A stretch of 64,000 bases of DNA from Polyangiaceae bacterium (GTDB taxonomy: Bacteria > Myxococcota_A > Polyangia > Polyangiales > Polyangiaceae). The DNA lies in NCBI GenBank assembly GCA_022842465.1, contig JALHPN010000007.1, positions 26,285 to 90,284 on the forward strand. The letters are read 5' to 3'. Below are positions 4,208-9,891 of the stretch, one piece after another; the first letter of the stretch is position 1; the number at the start of each line of letters is the position of its first letter. The notes under the pieces were generated by a model, which was not told the DNA's origin, searched no databases, and saw only the letters and a program-made list of their open reading frames with translations. A program made the translations under genes and the position numbers.

Positions 4208-6913
4208 TCACCGCCCGTCCGTCTCCTCGAGCTGCGCCAGCGCCACCGCCAGCGCATCCTTCGCACGCTCCAGCGAGCCCTTGTCGCCCTCGATCTTCGT
4301 GAGCGCCTTGTCGAGCCGGCTCGTCTGCGTGACGAGGTGCGTCCGCGTCTCGTCGAGCGCCGCCTTCGTCGCCGCGAGGTCCGCCTCGAGGACGACGCTC
4401 CGGTCCCGCGTCGCCGCGAGCTCCTTCTCGTTCCGGTTCTTCTGCTCGATCAGGCTCGCGAGATGCGACTCGAGCTCGACGACCTTCGCGTCGCGCTCGG
4501 CGAGCGCCGCGCGCGTCGTCGCGAGATCTTCCTCGAGCGCCGCGAGCCGAGCGCTCGCCGCGGCGGCCGAAGCGGACGTCGTGCTCTCGAGGTGCGCGTA
4601 GCGCGCGTCCGCTTCCTGCTTCGTCCGTGCGAGCTCGGTCTCGGCGTCGGACTTCGTGCGCGCGAGCTCCTCGCTCGCGGCCTGCTTCGTGGCGGCGAGC
4701 TCCGCGGCCGCCGCGTCGCGGACGCTCGCGAGCTCGGAGGCCGCCTGCGCCTCGAGCGCCGCGATCTTCGCGTCGCGATCCGACTGCATCGCGGCGAGGC
4801 GCTGATCGCGATCGGCCTCCGCCGCCGACACGCGCGCGTCGCGATCGGCCTCGGCCGCCGACACGCGCGCGTCGCGGTCGGCCTCGGCTGCGGCGACCTT
4901 GGCGTCACGATCGGCCTCGAGCTCGGCGCGAAGGGTGGCGAGCGCTTCTTCCTGACGCGCGGCGGCGGCGGCGAGCTCGTCTTCGCGCCGCTTCTCGGCC
5001 TCGGCGAGCTTCGCCTGGTGATCGGCGCGGGTGCGTCCGAGCTCGTCCTGGTGGGCGCGGTGGAGGGAGGCGAGCTTGCCGTCGCTCTCGGCCTTCAGCT
5101 CCGCCTCGCGAGAGCGGACGGCCTGCGCGCGGGCCTCGTCGGCGGCCACGGCTGCCTCCTCGAGGGCGCGCGCCTTGTCGGCAGCCGCCGCCTCGAGCTC
5201 GCTGATGCGGCGGGCCTCGGCGGCCGAGAGCTCGTTCGCGCGGCGCGACTCGAGCTCGGCGACCTCGCTCGAGCGGCGCGCTTCCGCCGCCTCCGCCTCG
5301 CCGGCGCGGCGCTGCTCGAGCGCGCCGAGCTGGGTCGTCCGCAGGTCTTCGGCCTCGGCGAGCTCGCGACTGAGGCGCGCCTCGACGGCCTCGACCTCGC
5401 TCGCGCGGCGCGCTTCGGCCGCCTCGAGCTCGCTCGTACGGCGCGCTTCGGCCGCCTCGAGCTCGCTCGCGCGGCGCGCTTCGGCCTCGGCGAGGGCGCT
5501 CGCGTGGGCGGCGCGCTCGGTCTCGAAGGCCTGCGCGTGCTCGTCGCGGAGGGCGGCCATCTCGCCGTCCTTCCGCGCGAGCTCGGAGGCCTGGCGCTCC
5601 TTCGCCTCCGCGAGCTCCTTCGTGCGTGCGTCGGCCTCCTGCTGCGCGCGCTCGGCGCGGCGCTTGAAGTCGTCGCCGGCCTTCTTGGCCTGCTCCTTGT
5701 CGGCCTGGAGCGAGTCGAGGCGCTCGCGCTGCTCGGCGAGGGCGCGCTCGTGCTCGAGGACCTTGTCGTCGAGCTCGGACTTCTGACGCTCGAGCGCGAG
5801 GGAGCGGTCCCTCACCTCGACGATCTCCTTGTCCTTCTTCGAGAAACCTTCCTTGAGGGAGAGGATCTCCTTGTCCTTCTTGTTGAGCGCCTCGCGGAGA
5901 TCGAGGAACTCGCGGCTCGACACCCCACCGGGCTTCGCGGCCGGGGCGGCCGCCGCGCGCGCGCGGAGCTCTTCGACCTCCTGCCGGAGGCGCTCGAGCT
6001 CGTCGTTCGTGTCGTCGTTCGGACCGGTCTGCGCGGCCTGCGCGGCGGCGTTCTCCGCCTCCTCCGCGCGCCGCCTCGCCTGCGCGACGTCGCCCTCGGC
6101 GCGTTCGATCGCACCCTCGGCGTGCGCGAGCGCCTCTTCGAGCTCGCGGACGCGGGCGCGGGCGCTCTCGGCTTCGCGCTCGAGCGCCTCGGTGCGGGCG
6201 CTGTCGACGAGCGACATCGGCATCGCCGACGCCGGGTCGAGCCCGGCGAGCATGGCCTGCCCGGTCGGACCCGAGCTCGAGCGCGACGGGCGCTCGCTCC
6301 GCCTCGGCGGCGGCTCGCTCTGGAGCGCGGCGGAGAGGGCCGCCTCGATCGACTGGTGCCCGTTGCCGTTCGCGTGCTCGAGCATGCTCTCGCCGGCGGG
6401 GGGCGGCCGCGACGCCATCTCCTCGATGACGATCTCGTCCTCGTCCCTGCTCGGCTGGACGGCCTGCGTCGCGGCAAGGTCTCCCTGGTGGACCTCGGTG
6501 ACCATCCCGGGCCCGTCGTCGATCGACGCCGCGTCGCCGCCGAGCGCGACGAACGGGGTGATGCGCGCGAGGAGGTCGCCGAACGCGATCGGCTTGTGGA
6601 CGTAGTCCTCGGCGCGGGTGCGGAGCTTCCGGTGCTGCTCGAAGGTCTCGTCGCTCGACTCGCTCGACATGATGACGAGCGGCACGTCCTTCAGCGCGGG
6701 ATCCTTCTTCAGCTTGTTGCAGACCGAGAAGCCGTTCATGCGCGGCAGCTCGATCGACAGCAGGATCAGCTCCGGCGGGTCCGCCGACGCTTGCTGGAGG
6801 CCGGCGTTGCCGTCGTCGACGACCGTGACGATGCAACCGAGCTTCTGCAGCTCGCGGTTGAGCTCGCCCGCGAACGCGGCGTCGCTCTCGAACACGAGAA
6901 CCTTCTGCCCCAT
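4208..6913 (-). CDS. FrzS-like protein: atypical receiver domain plus long coiled coil
   Basis: N-term MGQKVLVFESDAAFAGELNRELQKLGCIVTVVDDGN...LILLSIELPRMNGFSVCNKLKKDPALKDVPLVIMSSE..FEQHRKLRTRAEDYVHKP resembles M. xanthus FrzS; the rest is Ala/Glu/Arg-rich coiled coil. Start placed at MGQKV rather than the ORF start 7018. Confidence 0.75.
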   Translation of the reverse strand: MGQKVLVFESDAAFAGELNRELQKLGCIVTVVDDGNAGLQQASADPPELILLSIELPRMNGFSVCNKLKKDPALKDVPLVIMSSESSDETFEQHRKLRTRAEDYVHKPIAFGDLLARITPFVALGGDAASIDDGPGMVTEVHQGDLAATQAVQPSRDEDEIVIEEMASRPPPAGESMLEHANGNGHQSIEAALSAALQSEPPPRRSERPSRSSSGPTGQAMLAGLDPASAMPMSLVDSARTEALEREAESARARVRELEEALAHAEGAIERAEGDVAQARRRAEEAENAAAQAAQTGPNDDTNDELERLRQEVEELRARAAAAPAAKPGGVSSREFLDLREALNKKDKEILSLKEGFSKKDKEIVEVRDRSLALERQKSELDDKVLEHERALAEQRERLDSLQADKEQAKKAGDDFKRRAERAQQEADARTKELAEAKERQASELARKDGEMAALRDEHAQAFETERAAHASALAEAEARRASELEAAEARRTSELEAAEARRASEVEAVEARLSRELAEAEDLRTTQLGALEQRRAGEAEAAEARRSSEVAELESRRANELSAAEARRISELEAAAADKARALEEAAVAADEARAQAVRSREAELKAESDGKLASLHRAHQDELGRTRADHQAKLAEAEKRREDELAAAAARQEEALATLRAELEADRDAKVAAAEADRDARVSAAEADRDARVSAAEADRDQRLAAMQSDRDAKIAALEAQAASELASVRDAAAAELAATKQAASEELARTKSDAETELARTKQEADARYAHLESTTSASAAAASARLAALEEDLATTRAALAERDAKVVELESHLASLIEQKNRNEKELAATRDRSVVLEADLAATKAALDETRTHLVTQTSRLDKALTKIEGDKGSLERAKDALAVALAQLEETDGR
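4836..4901 (-). repeat. 33-bp tandem repeat, 2 units (11-aa coiled-coil repeat AEADRDARVSA)
   Basis: gcgtcgcgatcggcctcggccgccgacacgcgc followed by a diverged copy. Confidence 0.6.
5388..5486 (-). repeat. 33-bp tandem repeat, 3 units (11-aa repeat AEARRASELEA)
   Basis: Three near-identical copies of gcctcgagctcgctcgcgcggcgcgcttcggcc. Confidence 0.75.
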
Positions 6914-6953
6914 CGGGGAGGAGAATAGGTGGCCCCTCCTCCCGTGGGAACAG

Positions 6954-7640
6954 TTACCGCGTGTTCCGCGCGCGTTTCTCGTCGTGGCCGCTCGTTCCCG
7001 TCCGACGGTCCAGCTCACGCAGGACGTCGGCGAACGGGACGGCGCGGGAGCGGAGCGCCACCATCAGGTGGAAGAGCACGTCCGCGGCCTCGTTCGCGAC
7101 GCGGACTTCGTCCTCGCTCGCGATCGCGCGCGCAAGCTCGTCGGCTTCCTCGCGGAGCTTCGCGCCGATCTTCTCGGGCCCGCCGTCGTAGAGGCTCTTC
7201 GCGTAGCTCTTCTCGCCCGTCGCGGCCTTTCGCGCTTCGAGCACGGTCTCGAGCCGCGCGAGGAGCGTCGGGGCGGGCACCTCGTGGCTCACGGTCGTGA
7301 GCGCGCCGCCCTCGCCGCGGGCGAGCGTGCGGAAGAAACAGGTCGGTGCGCCAGTGTGACACGTCGGCCCGTTCGGGACGACGAGGTAGACGAGCGAGTC
7401 CTCGTCGCAGTCGACGAGCACCGATCGCACGTCGAGGACGTTGCCGCTCGTCTCGCCCTTCGTCCAGAGCGCGCCACGCGAGCGGCTGAAGAAGGTCGCG
7501 CGACCGGTCTCCATCGTCATCGCGACCGCTTCGGCAGTGGCGAAGGCGACCATGCGCACCTCACCGGTGAGCGCGTCCTGGGCGACGACGGGCAAGAGGC
7601 CACGCTCGTCGTAGCGCGCTTCGAAGGGAGTGGTGCTCAC
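6954..7640 (-). CDS. hisIE: Bifunctional phosphoribosyl-AMP cyclohydrolase / phosphoribosyl-ATP pyrophosphatase
   Basis: HisI motifs SRGALWTKGETSGN, DCDEDSLVYLV, GPTCHTGAPTCFF, followed by HisE-like SYAKSLYDGGPEKIGAKLREEADELARA. Confidence 0.9.
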   Translation of the reverse strand: MSTTPFEARYDERGLLPVVAQDALTGEVRMVAFATAEAVAMTMETGRATFFSRSRGALWTKGETSGNVLDVRSVLVDCDEDSLVYLVVPNGPTCHTGAPTCFFRTLARGEGGALTTVSHEVPAPTLLARLETVLEARKAATGEKSYAKSLYDGGPEKIGAKLREEADELARAIASEDEVRVANEAADVLFHLMVALRSRAVPFADVLRELDRRTGTSGHDEKRARNTR

Positions 7641-7644
7641 GGCG

Positions 7645-8628
7645 ATGTGCTACTCGAACGGGTCCGAGGACACCATCCCGATGATCCGCGCCGAGCTCGA
7701 GTTTGCGACGCCGAGGAAGCTGCCGAAGGCGAGCAGCGTGAAGGGTCGCGTCGTCGTGCTCGACGTGGCGTTCGCCTCGGAGGCGAGCGGGGGCGGCTTC
7801 GAGAAGATCACGAAGCCCTTCCTCGACGGTCTCGGCTCACGGCTCGCCGCGTGGGTCGATCACCATGATCACGCGCTCCACGCCGCCTACGCGTCCGATC
7901 CGCGCTTCGTGCTCGCGACGAAGGCTCAGCACGGCGCGTGCCCCGAGATGATCACGCCCGAGATCGTGGCGCGCACCGGGAAGATCGACACCATCGTCTG
8001 CCACACCGACTTCGACGGTCTGTGCAGCGCGGCGAAGTGGATGCGCGAAGGGGTCGAGCCGTACCCCGGCGCCGACGACGACGCGCGCGCGATCGACACG
8101 CGGATGGGGACGCCGAGCGCGACGGCCCGCCGCTTCGACCGGGCCATCCGCGCCCGGCCGCGCGACATCGGGCTCCTCGGCGTCGTCGTGCGACACCTCG
8201 CCTCTGGCCTCGCCGACGAGTCGCTGTGGCGACCGATCCTCGAAGCAGGCGCCGAGCTCGAGGCCGTCGAGAAGACGACGACGGAGCTCGCCCGCGACTA
8301 CCGGCGCATCCCGATCGGCAGGCCGACCCTGCCGACGTGCACGTCGGTCGCCTTCCTCGACGTGACCCGCAAGCACCCGCCGCAGGGGCGCACACGGTAC
8401 GACAAGACGATGCTCCTCCTGCTCGGGCAGGAGCGCGCGTCGATCGCCGTGCTCCTCGACGGCGAGACCCTGACGTTCGCCGCGCCGTTCGACAGCGGCA
8501 TCAACTTCCTGTCCTTGCTCGGACTTTCCGGGGGGATGCCCACCCTCGTCTCCGTGTCCGCGGAGCACCTCGAGGACGTCCTGACGAAGCTCGGTATGCC
8601 CCACGGCGACGTCTCGACGCTGCGGTGA
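7645..8628 (+). CDS. DHH-type phosphoesterase-like protein with apparently permuted motif order
   Basis: VVVLDVAF (motif II-like), AAWVDHHDH (DHH, motif III) and then IVCHTDFDGLCSAAKWM (motif I-like HxDxDG). Confidence 0.65.
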   Translation: MCYSNGSEDTIPMIRAELEFATPRKLPKASSVKGRVVVLDVAFASEASGGGFEKITKPFLDGLGSRLAAWVDHHDHALHAAYASDPRFVLATKAQHGACPEMITPEIVARTGKIDTIVCHTDFDGLCSAAKWMREGVEPYPGADDDARAIDTRMGTPSATARRFDRAIRARPRDIGLLGVVVRHLASGLADESLWRPILEAGAELEAVEKTTTELARDYRRIPIGRPTLPTCTSVAFLDVTRKHPPQGRTRYDKTMLLLLGQERASIAVLLDGETLTFAAPFDSGINFLSLLGLSGGMPTLVSVSAEHLEDVLTKLGMPHGDVSTLR

Positions 8629-9000
8629 CCACCCCCATCTGCGCGGTTGGGGCTCACCCCTGCGGGTAGGAGGCTTCAGGCAAGAGTGTGACATGGCGGT
8701 TTCTCCATGGAAACCGGTTGCTTCAAGGGTGCAATCAGCGTTGACCCCCCCTGCGGCCTCATGCTAGCTGCCTTCCAACGTTGCAATCCGGACGCGGCGG
8801 CGCGTTGCAGGGTCGCAAGGTAGGGGTCAGGGGCGGGGGCCGTGACGGCACCCATGCCCCCTTCGAAGAGGTGGGTGACTTCGATGGTTGCACGAGCGTG
8901 GGCTACGAGCCGGGTCCAGGACACGAAGACGTGGGAGCGAGCGTCGCAGCTCGGCCGTGGGACGCTGACGCAGAGTCACACCCACCGCGGCGTCGAGGAG

Positions 9001-9891
9001 ATGTTCGTGCAGAACGACGCCGTGTCGCTCTGCCTCCTCCTCAATCGCCGCGCGAAGACGATGCGGGTCATCGACTTTCGCGCCGGGCCGAGCCACGCGA
9101 AGCGCGCGTTCGTCCTGAAGCTCGCGAAGCGCGAGGGGATCGAGAAGGTCTACACGCTCGTCGAGCGTGACGAGGTCTCGACGTGGTCGAAGCTGGGCTT
9201 CGCGCGCGAGGCGAACATCCCTGGCTTCTACAAGCGGAGCGACGCCTTCATCCTCGGCTGCTCGGCGAACGCGCAGCACGAGAGCGAGGTGCGCATCGCG
9301 CTCTCCTCCCCCGCGGCGGACGACGAGGACGACGTCGCGACCGACGAGCACTCGGCCGCGTACGATCTCGCAGAGAAGACGCTCGCGACCGCGAAGAAGC
9401 ACAACAAGGAGCTCCTCGACCGGGCCCTCCCCCCGGCGAAGCTCGTCGCGGTGAAGGAGTCGGACATCAAGAAGGCGCTCGAGAAGGCGCTCAAGACCGG
9501 GCGCGCGCTGACGGCGTTCGAGCCGTTCGGCCGGGACGTCGAGCGGCGCTTCTTCCAGATCACGGCGCGCGGCGGCTTCGAGCTCGTCGCGTCGCTCGAG
9601 GCGCAGTCGTGCTTCGGCAACGCGTTCCTCGAGCTGCTCACGGCGCCGAAGACCGAGGCCGAGCGCCTCGCGACGGTGTCGGCGCTCCGGACGATCTGCG
9701 ACAAGCTCCTCGCCGAGGGCGTCGTCAGCTGCTTCGCGCTCGCGCCGAGCGACGACGTCGCCCTCGCGACGGCCTTCGTACACAACGGCTTCCGCCGGAC
9801 GGGCCTCCTCCAGGATCACCTCGCGGTCGGGCGCGAGCGGAAGGACGCGATCGTCTGGTCGCGGAAGCTCGCGAACCCGGCCGCGGACTAG
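9001..9891 (+). CDS. GNAT-like acetyltransferase, probably two tandem GNAT-type halves
   Basis: Start at MFVQNDAV preferred over ORF start 8842. RAFVLKLAKREGIEKVYTLVERDEVSTWSKLGFAREANIPGFYKRSDAFIL; second half ATVSALRTICDKLLAEGVVSCFALAPSDDVALATAFVHNGFRRTGLLQDHLAVGRERKDAIVWSRKL. Confidence 0.6.
   Translation: MFVQNDAVSLCLLLNRRAKTMRVIDFRAGPSHAKRAFVLKLAKREGIEKVYTLVERDEVSTWSKLGFAREANIPGFYKRSDAFILGCSANAQHESEVRIALSSPAADDEDDVATDEHSAAYDLAEKTLATAKKHNKELLDRALPPAKLVAVKESDIKKALEKALKTGRALTAFEPFGRDVERRFFQITARGGFELVASLEAQSCFGNAFLELLTAPKTEAERLATVSALRTICDKLLAEGVVSCFALAPSDDVALATAFVHNGFRRTGLLQDHLAVGRERKDAIVWSRKLANPAAD

Follow-up and report, generated by a model that had tools for sequence, protein, structure and literature searches.

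Enzymes of the DHH superfamily, among them RecJ, NrnA and NrnB, GdpP, PggH and NrN, set the levels of nanoRNAs and second messengers, and current DHH family definitions presume the motif order I-II-III-IV together with a GGGH motif. A plus-strand gene in the window (the whole 64,000-nucleotide stretch of Polyangiaceae DNA analysed here) carries the catalytic motifs in a different order, which raises the question of whether its product is a circularly permuted DHH phosphoesterase, an assembly of fused or duplicated halves, or an ordinary domain with a chance resemblance to motif I.

Gene boundaries and motif order

The open reading frame spans positions 7630-8628 of the plus strand and reads, in sequence, VVVLDVAF, WVDHHDH and CHTDFDG; the first-pass annotation was thus right that a motif-II-like VVVLDVAF and the DHH triplet precede HxDxDG, and its three motifs are all present, although the positions it gave them are 1-6 bases off. 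It also began the gene at 7645. Because the homologues start at an equivalent point, translation probably begins instead at the ATG at 7681 (MIRAELEF..PRKLP), whose methionine is residue 1 in the numbering used here, and ends with the stop at 8628. The motif II aspartate, D28 (in VVVLDVAF), is encoded at 7762-7764; AAWVDHHDH lies at 7846-7872, with the motif III DHH (residues 60-62) at 7858-7866; and IVCHTDFDGLCSAAKWM occupies 7993-8043, the H108 codon being at 8002 and HxDxDG comprising residues 108-113. The gene and its parts are as follows.

7681..8628, plus strand: complete gene for the putatively permuted DHH-DHHA1-like protein, 315 aa plus stop, start set from homologue N-termini
7681..7974, plus strand: block b2-b3-b4-b5-aD, residues 1-98, with motifs II and III (model strands b2 5-10, b3 24-27, b4 55-60 and b5 76-78, helix aD 93-99)
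7975..8061, plus strand: apparently transposed block b1-aA, residues 99-127, with motif I CHTDFDG at 7999-8019 (model strand b1 104-108, helix aA 111-121)
8071..8103, plus strand: motif-IV-like helix ADDDARAIDTR, residues 131-141 (D134, D139 and R141 invariant)
8302..8589, plus strand: C-terminal DHHA1-like domain, residues 208-303, delimited by conservation and by the unpermuted alignment, in which residue 304 faces canonical position 289

An alignment of 61 homologues, 41-80% identical to the query, reveals that D28, D60-H61-H62, H108-x-D110-x-D112-G113, D134, D139 and R141 are invariant (61/61), and every member therefore carries the HxDxDG of motif I, the aspartate of motif II and the DHH of motif III that characterize the superfamily. 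The order is II-III-I-IV in all 61 proteins rather than the superfamily's I-II-III-IV, so that the II-III-I arrangement noticed in the query extends to its relatives, and none of them lacks one of the motifs, a loss that the first-pass annotation had named as counterevidence. D134 and D139 both sit on the helix where motif IV is expected and are candidates for its aspartate; judged by the order of elements relative to a canonical model, helix 131-141 appears to be the motif IV equivalent. Within the DHHA1-like domain, a conserved DKTxLLLxGQ (8401-8430) is followed by GGMPT (8530-8544), which stands where canonical proteins have GGGGH and is invariant in 61/61 homologues. The GGGH motif of the DHHA1 domain (PF02272) is absent, and the dual signature of NrnB (COG2404) is accordingly present in its DHH half and missing in its GGGH half.

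Scanning the window's protein against Pfam, NCBIfam, PHROGs and PADLOC returned nothing useful, and no library model names the family. The Pfam scan gave the window's protein no match to PF01368, while five of the 61 members match it weakly (best E 0.013), short of the Pfam gathering cut-off for DHH; searches against PDB sequences, with the single protein and with a profile, yielded chance matches only.

Topology of the Rossmann-like core

We compared the family by HHalign with canonical DHH sets from the same class, namely 34 sequences of the 'HGHCFDG' family and 14 PggH-like proteins, as well as with a merged profile. Against the PggH-like profile the score rises from 29 in native order to 49 when residues 100-124 are put first, and against the merged profile the same move raises it from 42.7 over 28 columns, where the motif-I block alone is covered, to 77.5 over 251 columns. 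Block-swap scans (a coarse one of 741 swaps and a fine one) peak at 85.8 with residues 103-128 put first (prob 97.4%, an end-to-end match over 251 columns to the merged profile, which includes PggH homologues), and all top swaps set the motif-I block ahead of motifs II and III; when the moved block has its columns shuffled 100 times, the score is 50.5 ± 2.1, with a maximum of 64.5. Full-length homology to PggH-like and related DHH proteins is found, but only once the profile is unpermuted. Aligned separately, the motif-I block maps to canonical positions 3-21 (prob 93%), the motif-III block to positions 57-69 (the DHH region) and the C-terminal part, weakly, to positions 145-289 (prob 1-26%), which gives a query order of III, I, C-terminal versus the canonical I, III, C-terminal. 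Comparison with RecJ and NrnA profiles stays at background even after unpermuting, so that the signal is carried by the PggH-like and HGHCFDG families only. A doubled query, which the first-pass annotation had recommended for exposing a permutation, proved less useful: with residues 1-205 entered twice, HHalign routed the alignment through the second copy's DHH at a score of 42, with no gain over the swap approach.

The AlphaFold (AF2) model of the protein (pLDDT 95, pTM 0.92) predicts the elements b2, b3, a helix, b4, b5, aD, b1, aA and the motif IV helix (131-140), followed by linker helices and the DHHA1-like strands. The window's genome also encodes a canonical relative, whose model (pLDDT 94.6) runs b1, aA, b2, b3, b4, a helix, b5, aD, the motif IV helix and so on; relative to it, the order is rotated to b2-b3(II)-b4(III)-b5-aD / b1-aA(I) / IV helix-linker-DHHA1, with each canonical element occurring once. 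In a Foldseek search of the PDB, the kind of structural check that the first-pass annotation had called for, ranks 1-15 are all DHH enzymes (NrN, RecJ, RecJ-Cdc45, NrnA). The best E-value is 1.5e-3, with none below 1e-3, and sequential TMq is 0.26-0.44 when normalised by the protein's own length, whereas the canonical relative gives 67 matches below E 1e-3 and reaches PggH at E 1e-13 and TM 0.71, a contrast in superposition that is expected if the folds agree but the order differs. A viral fold library returned seven further matches to the permuted model below E 1e-3, down to 4.5e-6, whose informative names are 'Phosphohydrolase' and 'DHH family phosphohydrolase'. By these fold matches, the predicted structure belongs to the DHH superfamily.

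Could the motif order nevertheless be accidental, with HxDxDG arising by chance behind an ordinary, non-permuted domain that holds a lone DHH? The weak native-order profile match (42.7, 28 columns) would fit such a protein, as would the failure of single-sequence searches to find a DHH family for the window's protein (P0001). Yet HxDxDG is invariant in 61/61 homologues and has the same strand-then-helix setting that canonical proteins give it, its block alone maps to canonical motif I at 93%, and the top PDB fold matches are exclusively DHH; the gain on unpermuting and the shuffled-block control contradict this explanation as well, and we regard it as highly improbable. The fusion or duplication of two half-domains, which would leave the halves alike and which the first-pass annotation had also entertained, is scarcely credible either. 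Circular permutations commonly arise through tandem duplication and subsequent trimming, which may be the history here too, but no trace of it is left: self-comparison and half-versus-half comparison reveal no internal repeat (prob below 1%), which argues against a duplicated half, and no canonical element is present twice.

Circular permutation, rather than coincidence or duplication, is therefore strongly supported on profile and model grounds, as block-swap HHalign, separate block placement, rotated model elements, and DHH-only fold matches with poor sequential superposition all bear out this half of the first-pass proposal. The data further support a permutation confined to the Rossmann core, with the cut between aA and b2 and the order II-III-I-IV preceding the DHHA1-like domain. 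Set against this are the weakness of the DHHA1-like part on its own (prob 1-26%) and the loss of the GGGH histidine. On balance, we consider it very likely that the protein is a DHH-superfamily metallo-phosphoesterase with a circularly permuted Rossmann-like core and a putative two-metal enzyme. We propose a model where the b1-aA unit bearing motif I HxDxDG has shifted from the N-terminus to behind aD, which leaves b2 as the protein's first element; the four motifs, now in the order II, III, I and IV, would come together along one parallel sheet, at its C-terminal edge, where they could hold two Mn2+ ions, and the C-terminal DHHA1-like domain would close over the substrate, whose phosphodiester bond would be hydrolysed. 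We found no earlier report of a permuted DHH core in a literature search whose coverage of subscription papers was thin, so that absence is no proof; to our knowledge, the arrangement is unreported.

Candidate activity and substrate

In DHH-DHHA1 enzymes, Asp and His residues of motifs I-IV coordinate a pair of metal ions, with Mn2+ the preferred one. In NrnA the ligands are D24, D26, D80, D156, H20, H103 and H104 (PMC9757072), and since their counterparts are present in the permuted sequence, an active two-metal phosphoesterase is likely. The DHHA1 GGGH is thought to lie adjacent to substrate-recognising residues (PMC9757072); its replacement by an invariant GGMPT suggests that substrate recognition differs from that of NrnA, NrnB and PggH, and the substrate itself may differ too. 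We infer that the protein most likely acts as a phosphodiesterase that depends on Mn2+ and cleaves short or linear dinucleotides, and our best single guess at the substrate, held at slightly less than even confidence, is a small linear nucleotide (pGpG, pApA or another short oligoribonucleotide).

A sizeable minority of our confidence goes to a permuted DHH fold that no longer performs dinucleotide chemistry and acts as a polyphosphate, phosphomonoester or pAp phosphatase or as a regulatory protein. The change of the GGGH substrate-recognition motif to invariant GGMPT is consistent with such a role, and retention of the gene in 58/58 genomes, whether or not Orn is present, suggests a function distinct from that of nanoRNases; however, the closest canonical profiles are those of the PggH family and its sister, the closest solved fold by E-value is the SAM-AMP phosphodiesterase NrN, and the Vibrio cholerae PggH is given as a pGpG-specific phosphodiesterase in work cited in PMC10600005. 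A narrower proposal, in which the protein takes the place of PggH in most Polyangia and hydrolyses pGpG as the final step of cyclic di-GMP breakdown, draws on the finding of PggH-like genes in 8/24 sampled class genomes without the permuted gene versus 7/72 of those that carry it (Fisher p 0.01; the test takes no account of shared ancestry within families). We consider it unlikely, as the two genes coexist in seven genomes, 16 genomes have neither, and Orn is present in 13/29 relatives.

Orn (NF003765) has no match above cut-off in 12/12 genomes of the window's genus (G000-G011), and we considered the permuted protein as its stand-in; the 13 of 29 sampled relatives that have Orn all keep the permuted gene, however, and this coexistence led us to reject an Orn substitute. 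The same 12 genomes also lack strong RecJ-type PF01368 matches, whereas Orn, a RecJ-type match or both occur in the majority of the other relatives sampled beyond this genus. In the window's genome, the sole above-cut-off PF01368 match is an NrnA-like protein of canonical motif order that bears HPDPDG and VDHHRA (L155:1360-2526; G000 C290).

Distribution, neighbours and relation to known DHH systems

The permuted gene occurs once per genome: at the level of the order, one of soil bacteria, 58/58 genomes have it, as do 72/96 in the sample of the class Polyangia and 40/189 in that of the phylum. A profile search of 379 phylum genomes placed members outside the class in three genomes of one myxobacterial family (f58) only, with the exception of a marginal partial match in a further genome (G182, E 3e-4), and weak matches in Polyangia families without the gene, considered as further permutants, turned out to be canonical PggH-like proteins. 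GTDB species genomes contain 279 matching stretches; the titles of the best 80 refer either to MAGs and isolates of Myxococcota or deltaproteobacteria, with Labilithrix, Polyangium and Sorangium among the names, or to unspecific proteobacterial MAGs, and the nearest named relatives put the window's genome close to Labilithrix. Plasmids, phages and viral contigs gave no match.

Neighbour conservation was counted by directed tblastn at 100 homologous loci, and the only frequently conserved neighbour, present at 44/100 loci and, at 42 of them, directly downstream on the same strand, is the gene listed next.

8842..9891, plus strand: downstream gene whose product matches an AblB-like GNAT acetyltransferase model (TIGR03827, 41 bits, short of the 205 cut-off)

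By eye, its product suggests a second GNAT-like half. The divergent hisIE gene reported in the first-pass annotation does start at 7640, but the pairing recurs in 16/100 homologous loci, which makes it a local arrangement, and we dropped it as functional context. On the minus strand, 4208-7018 encodes a receiver domain and, behind it, a coiled-coil-like region of great length, an architecture that by eye looks like that of FrzS-type proteins; at 23/100 loci a relative of this gene lies close to the DHH gene, on the strand opposite to it. None of the conserved neighbours at the 100 loci points to nucleotide turnover.

The near-universal Polyangia member of the superfamily implies that the predicted two-metal core tolerates a new topology, and permutation would explain why profile searches miss the family; we therefore regard it as a candidate conserved phosphoesterase and suggest rotated profiles for finding other permuted DHH enzymes. 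More tentatively, at somewhat below even confidence, a permuted DHH core fixed in single copy across a myxobacterial order and equipped with a new substrate pocket (GGMPT for GGGH) might act on a nucleotide or phosphoester handled by no known DHH enzyme.

Among known systems, the top PDB fold match is NrN (9lqb), a small stand-alone DHH enzyme and the SAM-AMP phosphodiesterase of CorA type III CRISPR systems, with a sequential TM of only 0.26-0.31; NrN genes adjoin CRISPR and corA genes (PMC10600005), and the conserved neighbours of the permuted gene show no such context. RecJ and NrnA are also among the fold matches and the metal-ligand set resembles that of NrnA (PMC9757072), but both, like GdpP, which is not among the model's top fold matches, follow the order I-II-III-IV. 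NrnB nanoRNases (COG2404), whose assignment rests on both DHH and GGGH signatures (PMC12709177), share the DHH core and the DHHA1-like end, whereas the permuted protein differs in motif order and in its absent GGGH. The canonical HGHCFDG family of Polyangia (P0002; own-genome copy L224:1486-2478; ~330 aa) has the same secondary-structure elements and DHHA1-like end, but an N-terminal motif I and an invariant GGGGH, and it superposes on PggH with TM 0.64-0.71, while the permuted protein reaches at most 0.44 (own-length normalised) among the DHH structures listed; the family is found in up to 66/96 Polyangia genomes, some of these being weak matches to PggH-like proteins, falls below the Pfam DHH cut-off and has no NCBIfam name. 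PggH (PDB 7d62) and its homologues in Polyangia (L234, L241) fall in the same length class as the permuted protein (~300 aa) but differ in their canonical order, a retained GGGGH and, in the homologues, a motif I that reads TRSDFDG; the permuted protein matches them partially in native order, but after unpermuting its match to the merged profile that contains these homologues runs end to end, from motif I to DHHA1.
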